A stretch of 64,000 nt of DNA, taken from Nitrospira sp. (GTDB taxonomy: Bacteria; Nitrospirota; Nitrospiria; Nitrospirales; Nitrospiraceae). Of this stretch, positions 30,065 to 46,557 are shown in pieces. The notes beneath the pieces are model-generated. The model saw only the letters and a program-made list of their open reading frames with translations. It had not been told where the DNA came from and made no database searches. Positions within the stretch are counted from its first letter, which is position 1. Each line of letters opens with the position of its first letter. The stretch covers positions 124,001 through 188,000 of the forward strand of contig JACOEL010000003.1 in NCBI GenBank assembly GCA_024998625.1. The letters are read 5' to 3'. The translations under genes were made by a program, and so were the position numbers.

Positions 30065-31540
30065 CTACTTCAAGAGCGGCGCGGCCTGGCTGGCCAACGA
30101 CCAGAGGCCATTGGGGAACAGACCCAGCAGCACGACGCCGGCGAGCGCGCAGGCCAGAACCAATGACAGGGCCGGAGAGGTTTCCAGCCGTGAATGGGTG
30201 GCAATGGCACCCTCGGCCTCGCGCATATACATGACCATTACGACGCGCAGGTAGTAGAAAGCTGAAATTGCGGCGAAAATGACGGCCACGATCGCCAGCC
30301 ATGTCATGCCCCCGTTCACCGCGGCCATAAAAATGTAGAACTTGCCGATGAAGCCTGCGGTCGGGGGAATGCCGGCCAGCGACACCATGAACACCAGCAT
30401 GAAAAACGCGGTGAGCGGTTCGCGTTTGGCCAGCCCGGCATAATCTTCGATCTGGTCGCTTTCCTGTCCCTCTTTACGCAACATGCCGATCAGGGCAAAT
30501 GCTCCCAGCGTCATGAACGAATAGATGGCGATATACAGCAACACGCTTGCGAAACCGGTCGAGGCCCCTTTGCCGCTGTGGCCGCCTGCCACCACGACTC
30601 CGATCAGGGCATACCCGGCATGGGCGATGCTGGAGTAGGCCAGCATGCGTTTGATGTTAGTCTGGACGATCGCCACGAGGTTGCCCAACGCGAGGGTCGC
30701 CAGGCAGATCACGGTAAACAGGACCGACCAATCGGCGCTGGCTGCTCCCAGGCCCTCCACGAACACCCGGAGGAAGGCGCCGAAACTGGCGGCTTTCGAG
30801 GCGACGGCCATAAACGCCGTCACCGCGGTCGGGGCTCCCTGATAGACGTCCGGGGTCCACATGTGAAAAGGCACCACGGCCATTTTGAATCCGAATCCGA
30901 CCGCGAGCAGCACCAGCGCCATGGAGAGGAGCGGATCTCCGGTGCCATGGGTGATGATCGCGGCTGCAATGGCGGACAGGCCTGTGCTGCCGGCCAGGCC
31001 GAACAACAGCGAAATGCCGTACAACAAAATTCCAGAAGAGAAGGCGCCCAGCACGAAATACTTGGCCGACGCCTCCAATGATCGCGCTTCTGTCCGCTTA
31101 AGTCCGGCCATCACATAGAGCGAGAGGGACATCAACTCGGTTCCGAGGTAGATGGTCAACAGATCGGCGCCGGACACCATGACCATCATTCCGGCCAGTG
31201 CGAGCAGGATGAAACCGTAGTACTCCCCGATACTCAGGCGTTCGGCTTTGAGATACGCCAGGGAGAGCAGCACGGTGAGTCCGGTGACGATGTACAGCAA
31301 CAATTTCCAGAATGCCGCATAGGCATCGATCACGACCATGCCGCTGAACGCGGACACACGATCCGTCATCTGAGAGGAGGTCAGGCCGATGCATATGGTC
31401 AGCGCACCTAATGTCAGCCAGACGAGGACGTCTTTTTTGGAGGCTTCAAGGATGGGATCCAGTGCCAAAATGAGACAGGCCGTCCCGATGACGATGAGTT
31501 CCGGAAGGATTGTGAGGAGGTCCTGGAGTGGAAAGGTCAT
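30065..31540 (-). CDS. nuoN: NADH-quinone oxidoreductase subunit N
   Basis: 491 residues with about 14 membrane helices; an antiporter-like proton-pumping subunit of complex I. LGTELMSLSLYVMAGLKR carries the conserved Glu of TM5 and AVVPFHMWTPDVYQGAP the signature loop of NuoN. Its start overlaps the nuoM stop by 4 bp. Last gene of the operon; normal length. Confidence 0.97.
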   Translation of the reverse strand: MTFPLQDLLTILPELIVIGTACLILALDPILEASKKDVLVWLTLGALTICIGLTSSQMTDRVSAFSGMVVIDAYAAFWKLLLYIVTGLTVLLSLAYLKAERLSIGEYYGFILLALAGMMVMVSGADLLTIYLGTELMSLSLYVMAGLKRTEARSLEASAKYFVLGAFSSGILLYGISLLFGLAGSTGLSAIAAAIITHGTGDPLLSMALVLLAVGFGFKMAVVPFHMWTPDVYQGAPTAVTAFMAVASKAASFGAFLRVFVEGLGAASADWSVLFTVICLATLALGNLVAIVQTNIKRMLAYSSIAHAGYALIGVVVAGGHSGKGASTGFASVLLYIAIYSFMTLGAFALIGMLRKEGQESDQIEDYAGLAKREPLTAFFMLVFMVSLAGIPPTAGFIGKFYIFMAAVNGGMTWLAIVAVIFAAISAFYYLRVVMVMYMREAEGAIATHSRLETSPALSLVLACALAGVVLLGLFPNGLWSLASQAAPLLK

Positions 31541-33105
31541 CGTCCCGCCGCCTGTTCAGAGGATGAGGGGGAAAGGATTGCCGCGATCGTGGCCGTCGGC
31601 TTGTCCCCTGTGACCGGACTCAGCTGCTGCTCGGCTGCCACCGCCGGATTCTTCGCACCGCCAAGCAGATGGGTGACGCTGGCATGCATGCGGCTCAATA
31701 ACGGGTTTGGAAAAATTCCCAGCGCGAACACGAGCACGATCAACGGGATCAGTGTTGCCGTCTCGCGGGCATTCAGGTCCAGCAGGTGCGAGCGATGCGC
31801 GGCGGCCGGGGTGCCGAAGACCACTCGCTGCATCAGCCAGAGGATGTAGGCCGCGGCCAGGATCACCCCCAATGCGGCCAGGGCCGTGGCAAATTGACTC
31901 CAGACGAACGTGCCGGCCAGGACGAGAAATTCGCCGACGAAACTGTTCGTGCCCGGAAGCCCCAAGGACGACAGGGCAAAAATCATCAGAAAGAGTGCAT
32001 AACGCGGCATCGGCCCGGCCAGGCCCGTATTGTCCTGAATCTGGCGGCTGTGGGTCCGTTCGTAGATGATTCCGACACACAGGAAGAGGCCTCCGGTGGT
32101 GATGCCGTGATTCACCATTTGCATGATTGCCCCTTCGATGCCTTGAATATTCAGAACAAAGATTCCCAGGGTGACGAAGCCCATGTGGCTGACGCTGGAG
32201 TAGGCGATGAGTTTCTTGATGTCCGTCTGGGCCAGGGCCATGTAGGCGCCGTAAATGATGGCGATGATCGAAAGCGCGATCATCGGCTTGGTGAAGCTCA
32301 CGGTGGCGTCCGGCAACATCGGCAGGGTGAAGCGAAGAAAGCCGTACGTGCCCATTTTCAACAGGACACTCGCGAGAATCACGCTGCCTGCCGTTGGTGC
32401 CTCCACGTGCGCATCAGGCAACCAGGTATGGAAGGGAAACATCGGCACCTTCACCGCGAAAGCGGCGAAGAAGGCGAGGAACAGCCACATCTGAAGCGAG
32501 GCGCTGTAGGTCCCGCGGCTCAACGCCAGGATGTCGAAGGTATGCCCGCCCTGGAAATACAGGGCGAGGATCGCGACCAGGAGCAGCACGCTGCCGGCCA
32601 GGGTGTAGAGGAAAAATTTGATCGCTGCATAGAGGCGGTTGGGACCGCCCCAGACGCCGATGAGCAGATACATCGGGATCAGCATGGCTTCCCAGAACAC
32701 ATAGAACAGCACGAAGTCTAGGGCGACGAACACTCCCAGCATGGCCGTTTCCATGACCAGCAGCATCGACATAAACAGCTGGACGCGTTTGTCGATCGCC
32801 GTCCAGGACACGGTGACGCAAACGGGCATCAGGAATGTCGTCATCAACACCAGTGGAAAGCTGATGCCGTCGAGGCCCAGGCTGTATTGCACCGACGGAG
32901 AACTGATCCAGGCGGCTCGCTCTACGAACTGCATCCCGGCGGTGGAGGAATCGAAGAGCCACCAGAGCGGCAGCGAGAGTGCAACGTCGGCGACGGTCAC
33001 GCCGAGCGCCAGCCAGCGAGCGGACTCTGCCCTCACCAACAGGCACAATAGGGCTCCTGCCGACGGCAGGAAGACGATCAGGCTCAGCCAGGGAAACGAG
33101 GTCAC
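31537..33105 (-). CDS. nuoM: NADH-quinone oxidoreductase subunit M
   Basis: 522 residues, 14 or so membrane helices. FYVFWEAMLIPMYLLIG includes the TM5 Glu and MFPFHTWLPDAHVEAPTAGS the NuoM loop with a conserved Lys just before it. Second antiporter-like pump module of complex I. It follows nuoL by 27 bp. Only one nuoM is present in this operon, so it is the canonical 14-subunit type (CD fused), not the two-NuoM variant also reported from Nitrospira. Confidence 0.97.
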   Translation of the reverse strand: MTSFPWLSLIVFLPSAGALLCLLVRAESARWLALGVTVADVALSLPLWWLFDSSTAGMQFVERAAWISSPSVQYSLGLDGISFPLVLMTTFLMPVCVTVSWTAIDKRVQLFMSMLLVMETAMLGVFVALDFVLFYVFWEAMLIPMYLLIGVWGGPNRLYAAIKFFLYTLAGSVLLLVAILALYFQGGHTFDILALSRGTYSASLQMWLFLAFFAAFAVKVPMFPFHTWLPDAHVEAPTAGSVILASVLLKMGTYGFLRFTLPMLPDATVSFTKPMIALSIIAIIYGAYMALAQTDIKKLIAYSSVSHMGFVTLGIFVLNIQGIEGAIMQMVNHGITTGGLFLCVGIIYERTHSRQIQDNTGLAGPMPRYALFLMIFALSSLGLPGTNSFVGEFLVLAGTFVWSQFATALAALGVILAAAYILWLMQRVVFGTPAAAHRSHLLDLNARETATLIPLIVLVFALGIFPNPLLSRMHASVTHLLGGAKNPAVAAEQQLSPVTGDKPTATIAAILSPSSSEQAAGR

Positions 33106-33132: not shown

Positions 33133-35031
33133 CTAGAACAGCAAATACACCGTCAGAATCACCACGGCGCCCAGCGTCATGCCGAGCGCATAATGTTGCG
33201 TTTGTCCGCTCTGCGTCAGGCGGATGAACCAGCCGCCCCAGGCAATGGCGCGAGCGACTCCGTTGACTGCCCCGTCGATAATCGCGACATCGACATGTTT
33301 CCAAAGCCCCTGCGCCGCCGACAGGGTCGGGCGTACCAGCGAGCGGTCGTACGCTTCATCGACATACCATTTGTGAAGCGATAACTCATAGGCTGCTCGC
33401 CACTGCTGCGCGAGCCGGTCCGGCAACGTCGGATTCAGCACGTACAGGTAGTAGGCCGCTCCGATCCCCGTGAGCCCCATCAACGTGGCGACCGCCATGA
33501 TGCCGTAAGCGGCCGAGCTTTCGTGATGGCCGGCAGCTCCTTCGCCATGGAAGACCGGCTCCAGGAATGCGGGAATGCCAAGATATCCGGCGACGATGCT
33601 CAGGACGGCTAGGACCATCAGCGGAGCGGTCATGGTGGTCGAGGGTTCGTGGACATGGCCCGCGTGATGCGGATCGACGCGGGATTTTCCCCAGAAAGTG
33701 ACGAAGACCAGGCGGAAACTATAGAAGGCGGTCAGTCCTGCCGTCAGCAGTCCGCAGATCGTCAGCACCTGCCCCAAGGGACCGGATGACCAGGAAGAGA
33801 CTAGTAGGTCGTCTTTGCTGAAGAATCCGGCGGTGAGCGGGAATCCTGCCAGCGCAAGTGATCCCACCAGGAATGTCCAATAGGTGACCGGCAGTTTACC
33901 TTTCAAACCGCCCATGTGGCGCATGTCTTGTTCATGGTGCAAGGCGATGATCACCGACCCGCAGCCCAGGAACAGGAGCGCCTTGAAGGCGCCGTGGGTG
34001 AGCAGGTGGTACATGCCGGCGCCGTAGGCGCCCAAGCCGCAGGCCATCACCATATAGCCCAGCTGGCTCATCGTCGAATAGGCCACCACGCGTTTGATGT
34101 CGGTCTGGGTCAGGGCGATGGTGGCGCCCAGCATCATGGTCAGCCCGCCGACCAGCGCCACGACCGTCATGGCCGTGGGAGACAGGTTATACAGCGGCGA
34201 GAGGCGCGCGACCATGAAGACACCGGCGGTGACCATGGTGGCGGCGTGAATCAAGGCCGAGATCGGGGTCGGACCTTCCATCGCGTCGGGGAGCCAGACG
34301 TGCAGCGGGACCTGCGCGGACTTCCCCACCGCTCCGGTAAAGAGCAGGAGGCAGATCATGGTCATGACCGAGACCTCCCAGGTGCCGCCGAAGGGGCCGA
34401 GGAGATTCGTGGTCTTGGAAGCCAGGCCCTGCGCGTGCGCGAACACGGTGGCGTAATCGAGCGAGCCGAAGGAGTACCAGACGAGGAACAGGCCGAGGAT
34501 GAAGCCGAAGTCTCCCACACGATTGACCAGGAAGGCCTTCGTGGCGGCGGCACAGGCGCTCGCCCGTTCATACCAGTGGCCGATCAGCAGGTAGGAGCAG
34601 AGTCCCACCGCTTCCCAGAAGACGAACAACTGGAGCAGATTGTCCGCCATCACCAGCATGAGCATGGAGAAGGTGAACAAAGCGATATAGGCAAAGAAGC
34701 GGGCGTAGCCCGGTTCGCCATGCATGTAGCCGATCGTGTAGATGTGCACCAGCGTGCTGACGGTGGTGACCAGAATCAACATGACGGCGGTGAGGCGATC
34801 GATGGAAATCCCGATGTGAATGTCCAGGGTGCCGGAGGTCAACCAGGTGTAGAGGGGCACGTTGATCGCCTGGCCTGTGGCCACGTCATGCAACGCCAGG
34901 AGCGAGAGCAGGAACGAACCCACCATGGCCGGAACCGCCACCAGGTGCGCACGGTCCTTGATCCACTGTTCGCCGATACCGACGATCAGAAAGGCGAACA
35001 ACGGCAGAAATGGAATCAACGCATAGAGCAT
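33133..35031 (-). CDS. nuoL: NADH-quinone oxidoreductase subunit L
   Basis: 632 residues, the distal pump of complex I. QLFVFWEAVGLCSYLLIGHWY, SAQVPLHVWLPDAMEGPTPI and ALIHAATMVTAGVFMVARL are hallmark NuoL segments. The C-terminus continues beyond the 14-helix core as expected for the lateral helix HL that clamps the pumps together. A loop after the core is His-rich (HHAGHVHEPS). Spacing to nuoK is 16 bp. Confidence 0.97.
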   Translation of the reverse strand: MLYALIPFLPLFAFLIVGIGEQWIKDRAHLVAVPAMVGSFLLSLLALHDVATGQAINVPLYTWLTSGTLDIHIGISIDRLTAVMLILVTTVSTLVHIYTIGYMHGEPGYARFFAYIALFTFSMLMLVMADNLLQLFVFWEAVGLCSYLLIGHWYERASACAAATKAFLVNRVGDFGFILGLFLVWYSFGSLDYATVFAHAQGLASKTTNLLGPFGGTWEVSVMTMICLLLFTGAVGKSAQVPLHVWLPDAMEGPTPISALIHAATMVTAGVFMVARLSPLYNLSPTAMTVVALVGGLTMMLGATIALTQTDIKRVVAYSTMSQLGYMVMACGLGAYGAGMYHLLTHGAFKALLFLGCGSVIIALHHEQDMRHMGGLKGKLPVTYWTFLVGSLALAGFPLTAGFFSKDDLLVSSWSSGPLGQVLTICGLLTAGLTAFYSFRLVFVTFWGKSRVDPHHAGHVHEPSTTMTAPLMVLAVLSIVAGYLGIPAFLEPVFHGEGAAGHHESSAAYGIMAVATLMGLTGIGAAYYLYVLNPTLPDRLAQQWRAAYELSLHKWYVDEAYDRSLVRPTLSAAQGLWKHVDVAIIDGAVNGVARAIAWGGWFIRLTQSGQTQHYALGMTLGAVVILTVYLLF

Positions 35032-35047: not shown

Positions 35048-35353
35048 CTAACGTTTCAATAGGTTCAGGTCGTCGATATAGATGGATGAATGCGCTCGGT
35101 GAAGGGCGATGATGATGGCCAGGCCCACGGCCACTTCCGCCGCCGCCACGGTCAAGGCGAAAAAGACGAACACCTGCCCCGCCACATTGTGAAAGTATTC
35201 GGAAAAGGCCACGAAATTGATGTTCGTGGCATTCAGCATCAATTCGACCGACAGCAGGATCACGATGATGTTGCGCCGGATCAACACGCCCACCACACCG
35301 GTGAGAAACACGAACCCGCTCAGGATCAAATAGTAGGATAAGGGTACAGCCAT
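35048..35353 (-). CDS. nuoK: NADH-quinone oxidoreductase subunit K
   Basis: 101 residues, three membrane helices. The two buried glutamates that relay protons are visible: in [19 protein letters not shown] and in [15 protein letters not shown]. Standard NuoK length. Between nuoJ and nuoL with gaps of 14 and 16 bp. Confidence 0.97.
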
Positions 35354-35367
35354 GGGACTACCGGTTG

Positions 35368-35880
35368 TTACTGCGCGGGTTCATTGATGCCCTTCTTCGC
35401 CAGGATGATGGCCCCGATCATGGCCACCAGCAGGATCAACGACGCGACCTCGAAGGGGAACAAATAGGTCGAGTACAGGGCTTCCCCGATCATTTCCGTA
35501 TTGCCGGGTCCTGCGACCGGATCTGCCGTAGCCGCTGGGGCTATCGCGCTGGTCTGCGACTTGATGAACAGCAGAATCACTTCGGTACACAGCATCACCC
35601 CAAGCAATCCCGCCAACGGGAGCTGGTTGTGGTAGCGCTCTTCTGACTTAATGCTCAGCAGCATGACCACGAAGAGGTACAGCACCAGGATCGCGCCGGC
35701 ATAGACGACGATCTGCACCGCGGCCAGGAACTCCGCATGCAGGGTGACATAGAGCCCCGCCACGTGAAAAAACATGATCAGCAGGGACAACGCGCTATAG
35801 ACCGGATTTCGCAAAGCGACCACTAGCAGGGAGGTGGCTGCGATCACCGCCGCGAAATAGAAGAAGAAAATGTGGTCCAT
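35368..35880 (-). CDS. nuoJ: NADH-quinone oxidoreductase subunit J
   Basis: 170 residues, five membrane helices. The N-terminal [20 protein letters not shown] and the central [20 protein letters not shown] and [19 protein letters not shown] match NuoJ; the last contains the pi-bulge helix region. A 130-bp gap to nuoI upstream contains no gene. Confidence 0.96.
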
Positions 35881-36010: not shown

Positions 36011-36586
36011 CTAGTTCTCCTTTTGCGGGAGATGCTTGAAGGTGACGTTGAAAAACGCCACGTTCGGATGCTGCAGCTCGAGGCGTTTTTCCCGGACGGG
36101 AAACGAACGGTCGCCGATGGCGAGCAGTTGTTGCTTGTTGAGATGCAGCTGGCGCTTATCGTAGACGGCCCATTCAAACTCGCGAGTCATGCCCAGGGCA
36201 TCCACGGGACAGGCGTCAACGCAGAGGCCGCAGAACAGGCAGCGCGTCATATCCATGTAGTATTCCTTCGAATACCGTTTGGTCGGTTCTCCGGGGACTT
36301 CGCCGCTGACGACCCGGATAACCCGCGAGGGACAGGCTGCTTCGCACAGGTCGCAGCCCACGCATTTTTCCGTCCCGTCGTCATACCGCAGCAGGGCCAG
36401 CATGCCCCGGTAGTTGTCGGGCAGCAGCCGCTTCTCATGCGGGTATTGCAGCGTAATCGGCTTGTAGTTGAGCAGGTGCGTCAGTGTCGCCTTCATGCCC
36501 ACCAGGAGCTCATAGAAGGTCAGCGTCTTCAGCCAGTCGCTGAACGACGGTTTCCGCTTGGGTTGCGTTGTGACGGCGACGTTCAT
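36011..36586 (-). CDS. nuoI: NADH-quinone oxidoreductase subunit I
   Basis: 191 residues with two 4Fe-4S motifs: CVGCDLCEAACP and CLFCGLCVDACP, which hold clusters N6a and N6b of the Q-module wire. The N-terminal segment LTHLLNYKPITLQYPHEKRL is the usual membrane-surface part of NuoI. Starts 9 bp after nuoH. Confidence 0.97.
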   Translation of the reverse strand: MNVAVTTQPKRKPSFSDWLKTLTFYELLVGMKATLTHLLNYKPITLQYPHEKRLLPDNYRGMLALLRYDDGTEKCVGCDLCEAACPSRVIRVVSGEVPGEPTKRYSKEYYMDMTRCLFCGLCVDACPVDALGMTREFEWAVYDKRQLHLNKQQLLAIGDRSFPVREKRLELQHPNVAFFNVTFKHLPQKEN

Positions 36587-36595
36587 TTCGCTCCG

Positions 36596-37663
36596 TTACC
36601 GCGGGAAGAAGTAGGCGGCAATGGCCGTCAGGACGATGTTGCCCAGCGCGATCGGGAGCATCACTTTCCAGCCGAATCGCATCAATTGGTCGTACCGCAG
36701 GCGGGGCAGCGTCGCCCGCAACCAGAAGAACAGGAATAGGAAGAAGTAGACCTTCGCGGCAAACCAGACGACGTTTTCAATCCAGGCCAGGCTGTCCAGC
36801 CCGATGTGTCCCAGGATGGTGCCGGGATAGGGCGCGTTCCATCCGCCGAGGAACAGCGCGGCCGCGACGCAGGACACCAGAATCATGTTGGCGTATTCCG
36901 CGATGAAGAAAAAGGCAAAGCGCATGCCGCTGTATTCGGTAAAGAAACCCGCGACGAGTTCGCTTTCCGCTTCCGGCAGGTCGAACGGCACCCGGTTCGT
37001 TTCAGCGACCGATGAAATGACGTAGACCACGAAGGCAAAAATCTGCGGGAAGGGCATGGCAATGACAAACCAGTTCCAGAACCCGCCGGCCTGCGCTTCC
37101 GTGATTTTTACGAGGCTGAGCGAGCCGGACAGCAGAATGACGCCCACGATCGCCAGGCCGACGTTCAATTCGTAGCTGATCACCTGCGCAGCGGAGCGGA
37201 GTCCGCCGAGGAGGGAATATTTGCTGTTCGAAGACCAGCCGCCCAGGATGATCCCGTAGGCGCCGATCGAGGCAAAGGCCAGGATATAGAGGATGCCGAT
37301 GTTGATGTCGCTGATCACGAACGGCTTGATCTGCATGCCGAACAATTCGATGGTCAGGCTCGGGCCGAAGGGAATGACCGCAAATCCGATCATGGCCGGC
37401 ACCAGGGCTAGAATCGGTGCGAGGGTGAAGAGGAATTTATTGGCTCCCGCCGGGATGATGTCTTCTTTGAAGAACAGCTTGAGCCCGTCGGCGATCGGCT
37501 GCAGCACCCCGTAGGGGCCGACTTCCATCGGGCCCATGCGATCCTGCATCCATCCGAGGACTTTCCGTTCCGCGAGGGTGAGGACCATGACGGTCAGCAT
37601 CACCACCCCCATTACCGCGGCGATTTGAGCCAACGACACCGCCAGTCGTAATCCGATTTCCAT
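36596..37663 (-). CDS. nuoH: NADH-quinone oxidoreductase subunit H
   Basis: 355 residues, eight or nine helices. LAERKVLGWMQDRMGPMEVG, ADGLKLFFKEDIIPAGA, SVAETNRVPFDLPEAESELV and GFFTEYSGMRFAFFF are the quinone-cavity and E-channel segments of NuoH. Joins the peripheral arm to the membrane arm. 24 bp after nuoG. Confidence 0.97.
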   Translation of the reverse strand: MEIGLRLAVSLAQIAAVMGVVMLTVMVLTLAERKVLGWMQDRMGPMEVGPYGVLQPIADGLKLFFKEDIIPAGANKFLFTLAPILALVPAMIGFAVIPFGPSLTIELFGMQIKPFVISDINIGILYILAFASIGAYGIILGGWSSNSKYSLLGGLRSAAQVISYELNVGLAIVGVILLSGSLSLVKITEAQAGGFWNWFVIAMPFPQIFAFVVYVISSVAETNRVPFDLPEAESELVAGFFTEYSGMRFAFFFIAEYANMILVSCVAAALFLGGWNAPYPGTILGHIGLDSLAWIENVVWFAAKVYFFLFLFFWLRATLPRLRYDQLMRFGWKVMLPIALGNIVLTAIAAYFFPR

Positions 37664-37687: not shown

Positions 37688-40357
37688 CTACGAGACCTTC
37701 GCGAGAGACACGTGCGCGAGCTTAAAATAGGGGATTTGAGTCCGGGGATCAATCGTCCATTCAGCGAGCTGTTTGGCCTCGCCGTCGAAATGCTCCGGAA
37801 ACCACAGCAGGCCGGCCGGCACCCGTTCGCGAATCTTGACCGTCGTAGTGATGGTGCCGCGTGAGTTGGAGACCGTGACCTGCCCTCCCTCCACCAGCCC
37901 GAGCTGAGCTGCATCCGCCGGATTGATGGAGAGGAACCCTTCCTGCTGCAATTGGAGAAGCCCCTTGGAGTGGGTGGACAGTTTCCCGGAGTGAAACAGT
38001 GTTTGCACGAACATCAGCGTAAACGGGCCGTCGTTGGTCTGCCGGGGCTGGCTCGCGGCATAGCGCGTGGCCACATCACCTGCAAAGCCCTCAGTCAAAT
38101 AGCGGCTCAGCACGGCCTGATCCACCTTGGGTGGCGTAGGAGTCGGTCCTAACAGGCCATAACCGGGGATGACCGTCCGAATCTCTTTCAGGATCTCCCG
38201 CGCGTCGCCATATTCAAGCGGCGAGCCCATCAGCACGGAGAGCGCCGATAAGATTTCCCAGTCGGGGCGGCTGTCGCCCAGGGGATTGATCGCTTGTCGA
38301 ACCGCTTGGACATGGCCTTCGGAATTCGTGAAGGTGCCGTCCTTCTCCATGTACGAGCAGGCGGGGAGCACCACATGGGCCATCGCCGCCGTTTCAGTGA
38401 GGAACAATTCTTGACAGACCAGCAGATCCAATTTTCCCAGAGCTTCTTTAGCCTGGGCCGCCGCTGGCAGGGTGCCGACCGGGTTTTCTCCGACCACGAA
38501 CATGGCCTTGAGGGTGCCCTTGTTCGCGGCGGCAAGCATCTCGGTCAGCGAGGCACCCGGAGTGCGCGGCAATTCTTCCCGCCACACGGCGGTGATGCGA
38601 TCGCGGGTGGGTTGGTCGTTGAGCGGAGCGGGTCCGGGAAAGAATTCGGCGACCGCGCCCATTTCGACGGCGCCTTGATCGTTGTTTTCTTCGGAAAGCG
38701 GTCCGAGTCCGCAGCCAGGCTTGTCGAGTTTCCCGAGTAGAATCAGCAAATCCAGGAGGTTCGTCACCGTGGTTTCTCCGCCCGGATGGCGCAGGACGCC
38801 GTTGCCGACCAGGATGACGAGGCGGTTGGCTTTCGCCAGTATGTTGGCGGCCTCTGCCCATTGGGTGCGGTTCCGGCCGGTCGCCGTCTCCAAGGCTTCC
38901 CACGAGGTGCCCTGCAGAGCGGAAGTCAGACGCTGCACGAAGGCCGCCGCCTGCTGTGCGATGGCGGCATCGACCAGGTTGCCTTCGATGACGGCCTTGA
39001 TGACGCCTAACACGGCATTGCCGAATTGCACGGGATGTGTCGGGAAGTGCTGCAGCGCCAGATTCGTGATGTTGCTCAGGGTATCGACGGCGGGCTGCAA
39101 GGCTTCAATAGTGACGAGACTGGCCTGCCGTTTCTTGACGGCTTCTTTGACCCTGAGCCCGGTGATCGGGCTGGTCTCGGTGATGTTCGTGCCGACCAGG
39201 AGCAATGCGTTGGCGGCGACGATGTCTTCAAACGCGATGGTCCAGCGATGGGTGCCTTGCACGCGTCGGAGCGCCTGCACCCCGTTGAGGTGGCCATACC
39301 GCGCGCTGCTGTCGATCCGGTTGGTGCCGATCACCTGGCGCATGAATTTTTCGAACACATAGAGGTCTTCGTTCGTGCAACGGGAGCTGATGAGTCCACC
39401 GAACGCATCCGCGCCCTGCGTCAGCTTCAGGCGGAGCGCCTGCTCGGCGGCATATTCCAGCGCGTCTTCCCAGGTGGCCTCGACCAGCGTGCCTTCGCGG
39501 CGGATCAGCGGATGGGTGAGGCGGTCAGCGTGGCTGCTGGCATGGAAGCCGAAGAAGCCCCGGGCGCAGAGGTCGCCGTTGTTCCGTCCGGCTCCGTGTG
39601 CGGAGTTCACCTCGATGAGTTCATTGTCCTTGGTCTGGACGGTGATCCGGCAGCCGTCGCCGCAGAAGGTGCAGATCGTGTCGGCCCGCTTGAGCATCCA
39701 GGGGCGATACTCATACATCGAGAGCCGGCTTGTAATGGCGCCAACGGGGCAGATCTGGATGCATCCGCCACAGAATTCACAATCGAGTTCATGCGGACCG
39801 AAGTGTTTGATCTCGGTCATCGTGCCGCGCCCCACCGGAGCCAGGGCCTTCACGTCCATGATTTCATCGCAATATCGGACGCAGCGCAAACACTGCACAC
39901 AGCGGTTCATCTGCGTTTCAATGAGGGGGCTGAAGTATTCTTTCTGGAAGATGCGTTTGGTTTCCGTAAACCGGCTGGTCGTCGGGGTGTATTGATGTGA
40001 GAAATCCTGGAGGTCGCATTTGCCGCCCTGATCGCAGACCGGGCAATCCAGCGGATGGTTGGCCAGGATGAATTCCAAGACCGACTTGTGGGCGTCGTCC
40101 ACTGTGGTGGTGGCGGTGCGCACGGCCATGCCTTCGGCGACCGGCGTGCTGCAGGCGGTCTGGAGCTTCGGCATCTTCTCGACTTCGACCAAACACATCC
40201 GGCAGTTGGCGTCCGGTTTGAGCTTGGGGTGGTAACAAAAATGCGGAATCATCACCCCGACGCGCCGTGCCGCTTCGATCACCAGGGTTCCCTTGGGAAC
40301 CGCGACCGTCGTGCCGTCGATGGTGAGCCGGACTGTTTCTGGTTTTTGATCAGGCAT
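37688..40357 (-). CDS. nuoG: NADH-quinone oxidoreductase subunit G
   Basis: 889 residues. N-terminal 2Fe-2S ligands (CYHPKLKPDANCRMC and a later Cys), the His-ligated 4Fe-4S region HPLDCPVCDQGGKCDLQ, and CVQCLRCVRYC with CEFCGGCIQICP for the next clusters. Then a molybdopterin-oxidoreductase-like domain that starts with CTFCGDGC and NGDLCARG, four Cys that would bind the off-path N7 cluster. N7 is present in E. coli and Thermus but lost in many lineages. The rest is the catalytically inert oxidoreductase fold. The ATG is separated from nuoF by a heptamer block. Confidence 0.97.
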   Translation of the reverse strand: MPDQKPETVRLTIDGTTVAVPKGTLVIEAARRVGVMIPHFCYHPKLKPDANCRMCLVEVEKMPKLQTACSTPVAEGMAVRTATTTVDDAHKSVLEFILANHPLDCPVCDQGGKCDLQDFSHQYTPTTSRFTETKRIFQKEYFSPLIETQMNRCVQCLRCVRYCDEIMDVKALAPVGRGTMTEIKHFGPHELDCEFCGGCIQICPVGAITSRLSMYEYRPWMLKRADTICTFCGDGCRITVQTKDNELIEVNSAHGAGRNNGDLCARGFFGFHASSHADRLTHPLIRREGTLVEATWEDALEYAAEQALRLKLTQGADAFGGLISSRCTNEDLYVFEKFMRQVIGTNRIDSSARYGHLNGVQALRRVQGTHRWTIAFEDIVAANALLLVGTNITETSPITGLRVKEAVKKRQASLVTIEALQPAVDTLSNITNLALQHFPTHPVQFGNAVLGVIKAVIEGNLVDAAIAQQAAAFVQRLTSALQGTSWEALETATGRNRTQWAEAANILAKANRLVILVGNGVLRHPGGETTVTNLLDLLILLGKLDKPGCGLGPLSEENNDQGAVEMGAVAEFFPGPAPLNDQPTRDRITAVWREELPRTPGASLTEMLAAANKGTLKAMFVVGENPVGTLPAAAQAKEALGKLDLLVCQELFLTETAAMAHVVLPACSYMEKDGTFTNSEGHVQAVRQAINPLGDSRPDWEILSALSVLMGSPLEYGDAREILKEIRTVIPGYGLLGPTPTPPKVDQAVLSRYLTEGFAGDVATRYAASQPRQTNDGPFTLMFVQTLFHSGKLSTHSKGLLQLQQEGFLSINPADAAQLGLVEGGQVTVSNSRGTITTTVKIRERVPAGLLWFPEHFDGEAKQLAEWTIDPRTQIPYFKLAHVSLAKVS

Positions 40358-40363
40358 AATATA

Positions 40364-40456
40364 CGTCGTTCGTCGCTCGTGAAGCGTGCAGTGTTGTGAG
40401 TGATACGCAGTGTCCGCTCTTCTCCGATGACGAGATACGCTTCACGAGATACGTCA
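40364..40456. repeat. Heptamer repeat block (nuoF / nuoG gap)
   Basis: CGTCGTT, CGTCGCT, CGTGAAG, CGTGCAG at the left and an inverted half at the right (GACGAGATACGCTTCACGAG) fill the whole 96-bp gap and reach the nuoF stop codon. Confidence 0.6.
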
Positions 40457-41761
40457 ATGCTTTGTTCCCACTGGTTCCGGCCGTATGAGATTCGCCGCCT
40501 CGGCCGCGTGAATCATGGCGACATACTCATGCCGCCAATGTTTGAGCGTGCTCAGGATCGGCGACACCTCGGCATCGCCGAATGCGCAGACCGTTCGACC
40601 GGCAATGTTTTTACACAGGTCGGTCAGGGTTTCAAGGTCCGACATCCGGCCCCGCTTATTGACGATCCGGCGCATGATCTGCACGAGCCAGGAGCTGCCT
40701 TCCCGGCAGGGACTGCACTTGCCGCAGGATTCGTGATAGAAAAATTCCATCAGGCGCAGGGCTGCCCACACCATATCGGTGCCCTCTTCCATGACGGTCA
40801 CACCGCCCGATCCCAGCATGGACCCGGCCAACGCGACGGATTCGAAATCCAGCTTCACGTCCAGGTGATCGGGCGTCAGGAAGGGCGCGGAGGCGCCTCC
40901 GGGAATGAAAGCCTTCAATTGTTTGTCCGACCGCATACCGCCGGCTTGTTCGTAGATCAGTTCGCGAAAGGTGATGCCCATCGGGACTTCGTAATTCCCG
41001 GGCCTCGCGACATGCCCGCTGACACAGAAGACTCGTGTGCCGGTGCTCTTCGGTGGTGACCCGATCGAAGCGAACCATTCGGCGCCCCGGTTCAGGATGT
41101 GCGGCAGATTGGCCAGGGTTTCGACATTGTTCACCACGGTCGGCTTGTTGTAGAGCCCGTGTGTGGCGGGGAACGGCGGCTTGACGCGCGGAAGGCCGCG
41201 CTTACCTTCGAGCGATTCCAGGAGCGCCGTTTCTTCACCGCAAATATAGGCGCCGGCCCCCCGGTGCACCCAAATGTCGATTGAAGTGTTCGAGCCGAAA
41301 ATATTCTTGCCGACATATCCTGCAGCCCGCGCTTCATTGATGGCCTGTTCGAGAATCTTGGCCCCCAGGACAAACTCCCCGCGAATATAAATGTAGGAGC
41401 TGGCCGCGCCAATGGCGTAGCAGGCGAGCAGCATGCCTTCAAGCAACTGGTGGGGATCACGTTCGATGAGCTGCCGATCTTTAAAGGTGCCCGGTTCGCT
41501 TTCATCGGCGTTACAGCAGAGGTAGCGCGGACCCTGGTAGTCCTTGGGCAGAAACCCCCATTTGACTCCGGTCGGAAACCCGGCGCCGCCGCGGCCGCGC
41601 AGGCCGGACTTCATGACCACCGCGGTCACATCCGCAGGGCTCACTTTGCCCAGCACCTTCCGGATCGCTTGGTAGCCGCCGGCGCGTTCATACTCCGTCA
41701 ACGAACCCGCATAGCCGGGTTGCAGCATGTTTTTCAGCAGAATGGGTTCGTATGCAGGCAT
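40454..41761 (-). CDS. nuoF: NADH-quinone oxidoreductase subunit F
   Basis: 435 residues; binds NADH and FMN. GRGGAGFPTGVKWGF is the glycine-rich FMN/NADH loop, YLCCNADESEPGTFKDR the adjacent site, and ESCGKCSPCREGSSWL plus the later TVCAFGD Cys hold cluster N3. Length normal. Electrons pass to NuoE/NuoG. In a nitrite oxidiser this enzyme could also run in reverse to make NADH; that is inference from lifestyle, not from sequence. Confidence 0.97.
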   Translation of the reverse strand: MPAYEPILLKNMLQPGYAGSLTEYERAGGYQAIRKVLGKVSPADVTAVVMKSGLRGRGGAGFPTGVKWGFLPKDYQGPRYLCCNADESEPGTFKDRQLIERDPHQLLEGMLLACYAIGAASSYIYIRGEFVLGAKILEQAINEARAAGYVGKNIFGSNTSIDIWVHRGAGAYICGEETALLESLEGKRGLPRVKPPFPATHGLYNKPTVVNNVETLANLPHILNRGAEWFASIGSPPKSTGTRVFCVSGHVARPGNYEVPMGITFRELIYEQAGGMRSDKQLKAFIPGGASAPFLTPDHLDVKLDFESVALAGSMLGSGGVTVMEEGTDMVWAALRLMEFFYHESCGKCSPCREGSSWLVQIMRRIVNKRGRMSDLETLTDLCKNIAGRTVCAFGDAEVSPILSTLKHWRHEYVAMIHAAEAANLIRPEPVGTKH

Positions 41762-41852: not shown

Positions 41853-42404
41853 TTACGCCTTCTGAGGCTCCGGCCACATGAAGGGGCCGGTCTTCAGCGA
41901 ACAGGTGCCGGTCTGCCGCAAGTCGGCCAGAATGCGATCCAGCTTCTCTTCCGTCAGCCGCTCGTAATAGTCGTCGTTGACCTGCATCATCGGGCCGGTT
42001 CCACATGCCGCCAGACATTCCACGATACTCAAGGTAAAGAGCTTGTCCGGCGTCGTTTCGCCCGGCTTGATGCCGAGTTTCGCGCTGATCCAGCCGATGA
42101 GCGTGTCTGAGCCGACGAGCGCGCACATGAGCGACTTACAGACCTGCAGGTGAAATTTTCCCACCGGCTTCAGGTTCAGCATCGTATAAAACGTGGCCGT
42201 CTCGTACACCTGCGGCGGAGTCAGCCTCAAGATCCCGGCAATTTCCTGCATCGCCGCTTCGGTGACGTAGCCCTGTTCCCGCTGCGCCATGTACAGCAGA
42301 GGCAACAATGCCGACCGTTTCACCGGATAACGAGCCAGGATGTCGTCTATTTCGCCCTTGTATTTGTCCTGCAACATATCTCTTCTACCAAAGGAGTGAG
42401 CCAT
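41853..42404 (-). CDS. nuoE: NADH-quinone oxidoreductase subunit E
   Basis: 183 residues from the first ATG; the second in-frame ATG at 42377 (MLQDKYKGEI) has a better purine-rich leader (AGAAGAG) and gives 174. Thioredoxin-like fold with four 2Fe-2S ligands: VCKSLMC and CLAACGTGP, the C-x4-C and C-x3-C pairs of cluster N1a. YETATFYTMLNLKPVGK is the usual NuoE segment. The 81-bp gap to nuoCD contains two GTGCGCGAG/TTGCGCGAG repeats instead of heptamers. Confidence 0.96.
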   Translation of the reverse strand: MAHSFGRRDMLQDKYKGEIDDILARYPVKRSALLPLLYMAQREQGYVTEAAMQEIAGILRLTPPQVYETATFYTMLNLKPVGKFHLQVCKSLMCALVGSDTLIGWISAKLGIKPGETTPDKLFTLSIVECLAACGTGPMMQVNDDYYERLTEEKLDRILADLRQTGTCSLKTGPFMWPEPQKA

Positions 42405-42485: not shown

Positions 42486-44237
42486 TCATCTATCACATTC
42501 TCCCATCACGATGTCGTAGGTTCCGAAGATGGTGATGATGTCCGAGATCAGGTAGCCGCGGGCCATGTGGTCGAATGCGCCCATGTGAATGAAGGAGGGG
42601 GCGCGAATTTTCAATCGGTAAGGCCGGGGGCTTCCGTCGCTGACGATGAAGAATCCGAGCTCTCCTTTGGGCGCTTCCGTACCGCAGTAGGTTTCGCCTT
42701 TCGGCGGTTTGAAGCCCTGCGTGAAAATAATAAAGTGGTGAATCAGGCTCTCCATGTCGCGCATGACCTGCGCCTTGGGCGGAGGAATCACGTGCGGCAC
42801 GTCTGCCATGATCGGTCCCTCCGGCATCTGGTCGAGGCATTGGGCGATGATCCGCGCGCTCTGCCGCATTTCCTCCATGCGCACCCAGTAGCGATCGTAG
42901 GTGTCGCCGCGTTTGCCGACCGGCACTTCCCACTCGACCTTGTCGTACACACCGTAGGGCTCGTATTTGCGCACATCATAATCGACTCCCGATCCTCGGA
43001 GCGTCGGCCCGGTGAGCCCGAAATTGATCGCGTCTTCCGCCGAAATCACGGCGATGTCTTTGGTCCGCCCCACCCAGATCCGGTTGGACATGAGCAGTTG
43101 GTTGTATTCGTTGACCTTCTCGGGGAAGGTCTGCAGGAACGCCTTTAGGCGGACCACGAGATCCGGGGTGAAATCGCTGTCCACCCCGCCGATGCGATAG
43201 TAATTCAACGTCAGCCTCGCGCCGCAGAGCTTTTCGAACATGTCCAAGAGCACTTCGCGTTCGCGAAACGTCCAGAAAAAGACGGTCATGGCTCCGATGT
43301 CGAGAGCCTGGGTGCCGAGCCAGAAGAGGTGGCCGATGATGCGTTGCATCTCGGCGACGATGGTGCGGACGTACTCCGCCCGTTCCGGCACGGTGATGTC
43401 GAGCAGCTTCTCCACCGCGCGGACGTAGGCATAGTTGTTTGTCATCGCGCAGACATAATCGAGGCGGTCGGTATGCGGGATGACCTGCATATAGTGCAGA
43501 CCTTCCGCCAGTTTCTCGACGCCGCGATGCAAATAACCAAGGTCCGGCGTGGCCTTCACGATCCGTTCGCCGTCCAGTTCCAGCACCACTCTGAGCACCC
43601 CGTGGGTACTGGGGTGTTGCGGGCCCATGTTCAGCAACAATTCCTCACGGCGACGCGTGCCGCCCTGGTGTTCGGCCACGAGGTAGGCCTGCTTCTCCTG
43701 TTCCGGCACTTCCCCTTCCGTCTGTTCTTCCGGAGCTTCGTCCAGGCGCGGAATGAATGGGAACGAGCTGCGCCAGCCGCGTCCTTCGGCCGGGAAATCC
43801 TTTCGCAGGGGATGGCCCTCTTCGTAATCCTCCGGCAGGAGAATGCGCCGAAGATCGGGGTGGCCGACGAAGGTGATGCCCATCAAGTCATAGACCTCAC
43901 GCTCCATGAACTCGGCGCCCTTCCAGATGCCGGTCACTGAGGCGATCTGTGGGGCCTCCTCGGTCACGCGGGCTTTTAATCGGATACGCCGGCGATGCGC
44001 GAGAGAGAGGAGTTGATAGACCACCTCAAACCGTTCCGGATCATTGGGGTAGTCCACTGAACAGATGTCGGTGATATGGTCGAACGAGGCCTCCGGCGTG
44101 TCGTGCAGCCACCGCGCGACGTCGACGATTCGAGCAGCGGCGACGCGGGCCGTAATCTCGTTTCGAGCGGTATCCACCTCCACGCCGCGGACGGCGTTGG
44201 GAAAGGTGGTCATGAGTCGTTCAAGCAGCGGTTGCAT
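42486..44237 (-). CDS. nuoCD: NADH-quinone oxidoreductase subunit C/D fusion
   Basis: 583 residues. Residues 1-160 are NuoC ([40 protein letters not shown]-like end). After a charged linker, NuoD starts at about 204 with [20 protein letters not shown] and ends [18 protein letters not shown]. NuoD forms the quinone pocket with NuoB; [9 protein letters not shown] and [11 protein letters not shown] are conserved there. Fusion is also known from enterobacteria. NuoD/NDUFS2 is the target of the methyltransferase family encoded first in this operon; the Arg methylated in mitochondria lies near the N-terminus of that subunit. Confidence 0.97.
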   Translation of the reverse strand: [583 protein letters not shown]

Positions 44238-44332: not shown

Positions 44333-44812
44333 TCATTTTACGAACACCCTCTCGCGCTGAATCTTTTCCTGCAATTTCAACAACCCGTCCAACAGCGCTT
44401 CAGGACGCGGCGGACAGCCGGCGATATACACATCGACCGGCACGATCTGGTCCACACCCTGCACCACGGCATAACTGTTGTAGTGGTTGCCGGAGGTCGC
44501 GCAGGATCCCATGGAGATCACATACCGGGGTTCGGCCATCTGGTCGTAGATGCGGCGGATAACGGGGGCCATCTTGCGCGACACCGTGCCGGCCACGATC
44601 ATCAAATCCGACTGGCGGGGCGACGCGCGGAACACGCCGGCGCCGAAACGATCGATGTCGTAGCGCGATGAGACGCTGGCGATCATTTCGATGGCGCAAC
44701 AGGCCAACCCGAACGTCATCGGCCACAACGACGATTTCCGCGCCCATCCGACGAAGGCATCGAGATTCGTCGTCAGAATATTCGCATCCAGCTGCCGCTC
44801 TAAGAAGCTCAT
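44333..44812 (-). CDS. nuoB: NADH-quinone oxidoreductase subunit B
   Basis: 159 residues. Cluster N2 ligands are visible: tandem Cys in [11 protein letters not shown], one in [11 protein letters not shown] and one in [13 protein letters not shown]2 passes electrons to quinone at the NuoB-NuoD interface. Length normal. The gaps on both sides (95 and 97 bp) are filled by heptamer blocks. Confidence 0.97.
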
Positions 44813-44822
44813 CTCTGACCTT

Positions 44823-44906
44823 GTGAAACGTAAAAGGTGAAACGTGAAAGGAAAGACGACAGAGCATCGTCCGCACTATGCACGTTTGGCGTCTCTCGTT
44901 TTACGG
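44823..44906. repeat. Heptamer repeat block (nuoA / nuoB gap)
   Basis: TGAAACG, TAAAAGG, TGAAACG, TGAAAGG at the left; CGTTTGG, CGTCTCT, CGTTTTA inverted at the right. Same 7-bp period as the other blocks, with a diverged unit. Confidence 0.65.
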
Positions 44907-44909
44907 CCG

Positions 44910-45281
44910 TTAGTCCCATTCGAGCGCCCCCTTTTTCCAGGCGTACCAGAACCCGACGATCAGGATGCCGATAAACACGACCATCTCGACGAGCCCCACC
45001 AGCCCCAATTTCTTGAACGCCACGGCCCAAGGAAACATGAAGACGATTTCGATATCGAAGATCACAAACAGCATCGCAATGATGTAATACCGGATCGGGA
45101 ACTGCACCCGGGCATCGGAGAAGAGCGGGCTGCCGCTCTCGTAGGGCGCGAGTTTGGCGCGATAGGGACGGCTTGGACGAACGATGCGTCCCAGGAGAAT
45201 CTGGACAGCGCCGAACGCAAACGCGATCACGATAAAAATCAGGATCGGGATATAGTTCAGCGGTGCGGCTTCGCTACCCAT
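44910..45281 (-). CDS. nuoA: NADH-quinone oxidoreductase subunit A
   Basis: 123 residues, three membrane helices. PYESGSPLFSDARVQFPIRYY is the NuoA signature loop near the quinone site (an Asp or Gly usually follows ES/EC), and IIAMLFVIFDIEIVFMFPWA the second helix with its buried acids. The ATG overlaps the end of the methyltransferase gene by 8 bp, so translation of the operon is coupled to that gene. Confidence 0.97.
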   Translation of the reverse strand: MGSEAAPLNYIPILIFIVIAFAFGAVQILLGRIVRPSRPYRAKLAPYESGSPLFSDARVQFPIRYYIIAMLFVIFDIEIVFMFPWAVAFKKLGLVGLVEMVVFIGILIVGFWYAWKKGALEWD

Positions 45282-46557
45282 GACAGACCTGTGAATCGTG
45301 AAGCGTCGTTCGTGAAGCGTCGGTTGACGTCTGACGATTGACGGATGACGGGCTCTTCGTTTGCAAAATCGATCCGAAGAACGGCTGGAATTTCAGTCCG
45401 TCCAATTCGGGCTTGGCCATACCCTTGTGCTGTATCAACACTTTGAATGTGCGACCCATGCCGTCCGGCCGCAGCAGGTGTATCGCCGCGTAAAACTCCG
45501 GCGATTCCGGCTGGAGCGATTCCAGCAATTGTTCAGCGCCAAGGCCGATCAGGAAACTCATCTGATTCGTAAAGCCGGTCACGTCCAATCCGGCCTGTTG
45601 ACCTGCTTGCGCCAAGGCGGTGAAGTCCACGTGCGCGGTCATGTCCTGCTCACCCACCCGGTCGTACGCATCCTCCGAGGTGGTTTGGTGGTAGTAGCAG
45701 AGGAACGTGCCGTTCTTGCGATCCTGGCCATAGAGGTCTTCGGCGGTGTGACCGTAGTCGATCGTCAGCACGGCGCCGCGCGCCATCACCTGTGCTACCT
45801 GCGTCATCCAGTTGACTGCGTCGAGATTGATTTCAGCCCGATAGCCGTCCGGCAGGTTGATTCCGCCCTCTCGCAGGTAGGCGGTGAGTTCAGTGGAGAG
45901 GGGGCGGTAGACCTCGCTGAATCGCTCGTCGCGAGACTCGACATAGACCTCCTGTGGCCGGCCGTCGAGCACTGCTAGCCGGTGAACAGGAAAGGCATCC
46001 ACGAGTTCATTCGAAAAAAAGAGTCCGGTGACGCTGTTCGGCGGCAGATCGTCCAGGCGGTCGAGCCAGGCCACGCGACCGGCCTCTCCCACCCAGGGCG
46101 CCAGATTGTGTTGTTGCTGGGTGCGCATCGCGGCGCTGCGCTCGATCAGGATGTAGCGAAGTCGGTTGCCGAGGTTCTCGGGCGCGTTCCGGCAGGCGGT
46201 CAGGAAATCCCGGGCCAACAGTCCCTTGCCCGCTCCCATCTCCACCACGGTGAAGGGATCCGGATGCCCGAGGAGGGCGTCGAGTTGCTGGGCCTGTCTG
46301 GCTAACGCCTGGCCGAGGATCGGGTGCACGTCGGAGCTCGTATAGAAATCGCCCGACCATCCGATGCGTTCCTGGGTCGGATCGTCGACAGGGCGAACAT
46401 AGTAGCCGTGCTGCGGATGATACAGGGCGAGCTCCATGAAGCGGGCGAACGGAATCGGACCCGTGGCTGCGATTTCAGCCCTGATTTCCGCCAGGAGTTG
46501 TGGATGCCCAATGCTCAAAGTGACACCACCCTTGTCGGTAGCCGCCTCCCGTTTCAT
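45274..46557 (-). CDS. MidA/NDUFAF7-family SAM-dependent methyltransferase, leads the nuo operon
   Basis: 427 residues. IPFARFMELALYHPQHGYYV, GDFYTSSDVHPILGQALARQ, VVEMGAGKGLLARD (SAM loop), LFFSNELVDAFPVHRL and LTIDYGHTAEDLYG are the hallmarks of the COG1565/MidA family. In mitochondria the homologue NDUFAF7 dimethylates an Arg of NDUFS2 and is needed for complex I assembly. Here the gene is transcribed with and overlaps nuoA, which supports a complex I maturation role in this bacterium. The last roughly 24 residues (from SSVNRQTS on) are encoded by a heptamer block and lie outside the family fold. The ATG at 46557 lacks a good ribosome-binding site; a TTG 13 codons on, preceded by GGGTGG, is possible. 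Confidence 0.9.
   Translation of the reverse strand: MKREAATDKGGVTLSIGHPQLLAEIRAEIAATGPIPFARFMELALYHPQHGYYVRPVDDPTQERIGWSGDFYTSSDVHPILGQALARQAQQLDALLGHPDPFTVVEMGAGKGLLARDFLTACRNAPENLGNRLRYILIERSAAMRTQQQHNLAPWVGEAGRVAWLDRLDDLPPNSVTGLFFSNELVDAFPVHRLAVLDGRPQEVYVESRDERFSEVYRPLSTELTAYLREGGINLPDGYRAEINLDAVNWMTQVAQVMARGAVLTIDYGHTAEDLYGQDRKNGTFLCYYHQTTSEDAYDRVGEQDMTAHVDFTALAQAGQQAGLDVTGFTNQMSFLIGLGAEQLLESLQPESPEFYAAIHLLRPDGMGRTFKVLIQHKGMAKPELDGLKFQPFFGSILQTKSPSSVNRQTSTDASRTTLHDSQVCHG
45291..45351. repeat. Heptamer repeat block inside the 3' end of the methyltransferase gene
   Basis: GTGAATC, GTGAAGC, GTCGTTC, GTGAAGC, GTCGGTT and then inverted GACGTCT, GACGATT, GACGGAT, GACGGGC, in continuous 7-bp steps. 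Unlike the others it is translated, giving the tail of the MidA-like protein. Confidence 0.7.

Follow-up and report, generated by a model that had tools for sequence, protein, structure and literature searches.

The midA–nuo locus

The window, the whole 64,000-nucleotide stretch of Nitrospira DNA that we analysed, carries a complex I operon headed by a methyltransferase gene. That gene, midA (45274..46557, minus strand), encodes a 427-residue protein placed by its PF02636 match and its nearest structures among the SAM-dependent protein arginine methyltransferases of the NDUFAF7/COG1565 family. Downstream on the same strand lie nuoA (44910..45281; PF00507, 133 bits), nuoB (44333..44812; PF01058), a nuoCD fusion whose product is the predicted MidA substrate (42486..44237; PF00329 and PF00346) and nuoE (41853..42404; PF01257). 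These are followed by nuoF (40454..41761; TIGR01959), nuoG (37688..40357; TIGR01973), nuoH (36596..37663; NF004741), nuoI (36011..36586; TIGR01971), nuoJ (35368..35880; NF005164), nuoK (35048..35353; NF004320), nuoL (33133..35031; TIGR01974), nuoM (31537..33105; TIGR01972) and nuoN (30065..31540; TIGR01770), all above the respective family cut-offs except nuoJ, which at 149.7 bits falls slightly below its cut-off of 154. This is a complete 13-gene nuo operon for canonical complex I, with nuoA to nuoN in order on one strand and a fused NuoCD. Since all of these genes come after midA on the same strand, midA heads the operon, as the original prediction held. The order has been described as carrying two complex I types, this canonical NUO with a NuoCD fusion and a 2M NUO besides, in a recent genome comparison whose main text does not contain the word methyltransferase (PMC12342949).

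Family membership of MidA

The midA product scores 219 bits on PF02636 (Methyltransf_28; cut-off 23.3), covering positions 2-249 of the 249-position profile; an NCBIfam search of the same product returned no family name. Three distinct solved sequences were matched by phmmer, all of the same family: Burkholderia 4F3N/4G67, Rhodopseudomonas 1ZKD and Dictyostelium MidA 5ZTZ. With an AlphaFold model of the Nitrospira protein (mean pLDDT 84), Foldseek recovered COG1565/MidA structures at E-values of 1e-27 or better, the next fold following at 1e-8, and target-normalised TM scores of 0.75-0.86 against 5ztz, 5zu0, 4f3n, 4g67 and 1zkd identify a MidA-type methyltransferase fold with seven beta strands. 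In an alignment with the three solved relatives, E106, G108, G110, G112, E184, D187, P190, D267-Y268-G269, D305 and F312 are invariant. The SAM-binding motif E-x-G-x-G-x-G and the motifs NELVDAFPVH, IDYG and DxTAHVDF recur in 4f3n, 1zkd and MidA, either complete or at their key positions. The gene therefore represents the MidA/NDUFAF7 family in Nitrospira, and on this point profile, fold and motifs agree with what had been predicted.

The nearest solved relatives in both sequence and fold are the COG1565 proteins of Burkholderia thailandensis (4F3N/4G67) and Rhodopseudomonas palustris (1ZKD), which are structures of putative function. NDUFAF7 and Dictyostelium MidA (PDB 5ZTZ, 5ZU0) share with the Nitrospira protein the PF02636 family, the fold (Foldseek E about 1e-27) and the SAM and acidic motifs, and their substrate NDUFS2 has the same HRG arginine as the NuoD-type substrate predicted here. 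They differ in that identity is only about 22-28%, the Nitrospira protein is encoded in the nuo operon and undergoes no organelle import, the C-terminal tails are unlike, and its activity is predicted from the gene.

We considered whether this genome encodes another MidA and rejected the idea, as the only other PF02636 match is weak and partial (30-32 bits) and belongs to a different protein. This is a 494-residue methyltransferase-like protein (G000:C14:79734-81218, equivalent to L344:5735-7219; 30 bits). Elsewhere, distant MidA paralogues of family f3 (L071, L072) have no adjoining nuo genes.

Conservation of the gene order

Comparison by eye of MidA and NuoA match coordinates in 146 genomes of the order, 59 of them confirmed by sequence, identified 139 with an operon-type MidA; in 138 of these, midA immediately precedes nuoA on the same strand. 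In all 139, midA stands at the head of the nuo genes: in the one deviating genome, G046 (L343, G046:C49), nuoA-G are missing from the locus and midA is kept directly upstream of nuoH-I-J. The seven remaining genomes have neither an operon-type MidA nor an operon-type nuoA. Outside the order but within the class, midA lies upstream of nuoA in 7 of 14 sampled loci, in one case about 1 kb away. At three loci from another family of the phylum, it lies about 4 kb upstream on the same strand, with intervening genes. The adjacency is far beyond chance and is by no means a peculiarity of this genome.

The 138 genomes are not independent, because the linked MidA sequences of the order form a single clade in a FastTree phylogeny, and this would suit the view that midA came to lie beside nuo by accident and was inherited there without any function attached to the position. 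Nevertheless, midA has kept its position in G046 despite the loss of nuoA-G, and cyanobacteria, Aquificota and one further lineage (L183) have distinct complex I arrangements (see below), so that we regard a mere accident as very unlikely. The linkage tree, built with FastTree only and with short flanks in many rows, has 25 changes and points to several gains or losses without telling the two apart.

The overlap between midA and nuoA

The last 8 bases of midA are the first 8 of nuoA (45274..45281, minus strand), confirming the overlap originally reported: ATGGGTAG contains the start codon of nuoA together with, one frame away, the TAG that terminates midA. Ribosome reinitiation at short gene overlaps is well established in general, which lends some weight to the proposal that the overlap translationally couples MidA to NuoA as an old, selected feature. 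Overlaps of 1-11 bp are also present in 13 of the 59 sequence-checked genomes of the order, seven of which overlap by exactly 8 bp; the non-overlapping genomes have gaps of 2-172 bp, besides two loci whose frames are disrupted. Of the 17 genomes sampled from the genus, 6 overlap and 11 do not, and one further overlapping genome lies outside those 17. In the non-overlapping members, save one locus with a disrupted frame, midA ends in …SAA and a stop codon 12-84 bp before nuoA. Conservation among relatives, the mark of a coupled pair, is therefore not seen in either the genus or the order.

A junction alignment of relatives indicates the origin of the overlap. In the overlapping strains the original stop after …SAA has been lost, and the midA frame continues through intergenic repeat DNA of the CGTTTCAC type (45282..45343, minus strand, delimited by genome matches and the relatives' alignment), ending at a TAG (or TAA) within ATGGGTAG, the conserved nuoA start. 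Because the nuoA start codons ATGGGTA(G/A) supply a stop for any read-through in that frame, the length of the overlap is fixed at 8 bp. Codons 401-427 (45277..45357, minus strand) encode a non-conserved C-terminal tail that is predicted to be disordered (pLDDT below 50), and MidA homologues finish at about residue 400-407. The core CGTTTCAC pattern, allowing at most one mismatch, has 37 sites in this genome versus 0 for a reversed control pattern, and the 62-base repeat stretch has 24 genome matches counting itself, i.e. 23 further partial ones. These short tandem repeats, with a period of about 7, are scattered through the intergenic regions of the genome and at times read into gene ends; a further one lies at 44823-44851 of the window.

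Given its minority occurrence, the repeat-encoded tail and the low pLDDT of residues 401-427, we take the 8 bp overlap to have arisen recently, as a side effect of stop-codon loss through the intergenic repeat. The comparison of the 59 genomes led us to reject it as an old coupling signal, and the original prediction fails where it took the overlap as evidence of ancient coupling: midA stops short of nuoA in most of the genus, the tail is repeat DNA, and the 8 bp length is set by the nuoA start codons. Coupling as an old and selected feature is accordingly improbable. In the strains that have it, the overlap may allow reinitiation at nuoA, though it is not the conserved feature. More generally, short gene overlaps can arise by repeat-driven stop loss and need not imply coupling.

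Linkage to complex I genes in other phyla

Loci from other phyla were collected by a MidA-alignment scan of genome contigs and by targeted searches of cyanobacteria and Aquificota, and were then searched for nuo and ndh genes. Although cyanobacteria generally possess NDH-1, MidA was matched in no more than 70 of the 146 examined. At four cyanobacterial loci (L156, L161, L165, L168), ndhH, the homologue of nuoD, precedes midA on the same strand at a distance of 12-430 bp, and several more have ndhH within 0.8-1.3 kb, while at L171 the order of the two genes is reversed. Two further loci (L314, L315), taken as belonging to non-photosynthetic cyanobacteria from their missing photosynthetic-type ndh neighbours, have the Nitrospira-like arrangement midA-nuoA-B-CD. 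Aquificota show the order nuoD-nuoI-midA at 15 of 30 loci, and at L183 (Handelsmanbacteria) midA and nuoA are divergent. Linkage to NuoD thus recurs in other phyla, in support of the original prediction. It is far from universal: no nuo or ndh linkage was found in the search of most cyanobacterial midA loci, and MidA and nuo are likewise unlinked in Desulfuromonadota and in half of the sampled class members.

When neighbours were counted with no family singled out beforehand, NuoD/NdhH led in the diverse set (10 of 67 loci). In Aquificota, NuoD and NuoI were among those sharing the top rank (15 of 30), and in cyanobacteria NdhH shared second place (7 of 61). Because these loci have common ancestry and those of the diverse set were picked by similarity, no p-value is given. 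The top cyanobacterial neighbour is a 3-hydroxyisobutyrate-dehydrogenase-like gene, always on the same strand as midA (17 of 61 loci; L223-L252, L283-L313).

In Desulfuromonas/Desulfobacter-type contigs (L129, L131, L133, L137, L145), a small gene for a NifU-domain Fe-S carrier follows midA on the same strand after about 90-150 bp, a neighbour that would fit a MidA role near the Fe-S cluster N2. No earlier report of midA–nuo linkage was found in the literature searched, a body of work with most subscription journals outside its scope.

The predicted target arginine

In eukaryotes, NDUFAF7/MidA dimethylates Arg85 of NDUFS2 (PMC3829151, PMC9006661). By the HRGXE motif given in PMC8042128 and PMC3750175, the equivalent residue in Nitrospira is Arg238 of NuoCD, within an HRG motif (codon CGC, 43524..43526, minus strand), corresponding also to Arg65 of Paracoccus. 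This arginine is kept in all 37 NuoCD sequences of the order, a point in favour of the original prediction, and the second NuoD of this genome has HRG too. Among MidA-bearing genomes of other phyla, 29 of 30 NuoD loci have the arginine; the exception is a genome of the diverse set (L203) with threonine in the one NuoD read. Within Nitrospirota, three genomes of family f18 that lack MidA have only threonine at this site in the NuoD read. However, several MidA-less genomes of families f14 and f17 keep the arginine, so that Arg does not require MidA, and a strict rule equating MidA presence with Arg in NuoD was rejected.

The fused NuoCD of some Nitrospirota (L093, L094, L095, L096, L112) likewise carries threonine (HTG), as in Thermus, for which threonine at the equivalent site is reported (PMC3750175, PMC8042128). 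In E. coli the equivalent arginine is present and unmodified (PMC3750175).

The same source reports that Arg65 of Paracoccus denitrificans NuoD is symmetrically dimethylated (PMC3750175). Paracoccus complex I thus resembles that of Nitrospira in having a bacterial NuoD with the same arginine; it differs in coming from an alphaproteobacterium and in that the modification was seen there and is predicted here from genes. The original prediction therefore overstated how little the bacterial role has been studied. Dimethylation of this arginine in a bacterium is already known, and an earlier paper traced MidA and its part in complex I back to bacteria, and specifically to Proteobacteria (Shahul Hameed et al. 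2018, as cited in PMC9006661). Other mitochondrial modifiers, NDUFAF5 and the METTL20 type, resemble MidA in acting on complex I or electron-transfer proteins, and the protein that METTL20 modifies is the same in mitochondria as in bacteria (PMC4938201, PMC9006661); unlike MidA, they belong to other families and modify other residues.

MidA could also serve complex I by acting on a different subunit, or by binding as a chaperone with no methylation involved. In favour of this, midA in Nitrospira adjoins nuoA and nuoB, not directly nuoCD, and MidA binds NDUFS2 directly (PMC9006661). On the other hand, the residues of the SAM site are invariant, cyanobacteria link MidA specifically to ndhH, and a methyltransferase-dead MidA mutant fails to rescue in Dictyostelium (PMC9006661), making a role of this kind unlikely.

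A competing proposal in the literature concerns DNA. The function of prokaryotic MidA has been said to be inferred in silico only, and Wolbachia MidA expressed in E. coli yielded 166 methylated bases by SMRT sequencing, a result its authors call 'preliminary' and one that revealed no strongly conserved sequence pattern (PMC12455994). We consider it extremely unlikely that bacterial MidA chiefly methylates DNA or acts on some other general target: its repeated association with complex I genes, which such a role leaves unexplained, argues against DNA methylation as its main function, and the model structure matches the protein arginine methyltransferase MidA.

Proposed role and implications

Judged by gene content, gene order and structure prediction, Nitrospira MidA most likely helps to assemble complex I by methylating Arg238 of NuoCD and is made together with its substrate, the overlap with nuoA being a recent consequence of stop loss. 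We infer that, during NuoCD assembly, MidA would use SAM to dimethylate Arg238 in the HRG motif adjoining cluster N2, and that dimethylated NuoCD could then dock with NuoB and hold this cluster. The position of midA as first gene of the operon would allow co-transcription, so that enzyme and substrate are produced together. The adjacency supports an old role of MidA in building complex I. The originally claimed context for an ancient role thus draws support from family, operon position, adjacency, target arginine and NuoD linkage elsewhere, but not from the overlap.

What is new is the gene-neighbourhood evidence from several phyla outside Proteobacteria. We lean, if only slightly, towards the broader view that NuoD-specific methylation by MidA is an old step of complex I assembly that predates Proteobacteria or lies outside them, and that has persisted in Nitrospirota, Cyanobacteriota, Aquificota and other groups, midA having become or stayed linked to the substrate gene or its operon on several occasions. 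If true, this would extend the published view of a proteobacterial origin, and complex I types without the arginine (HTG, as in Thermus) would dispense with MidA. The linkage pattern bears on the age of the modification near cluster N2, and the fixed position of midA at the head of the nuo genes across a large order of nitrifiers, together with the repeated linkage to NuoD, makes a complex I role testable in non-proteobacterial models.
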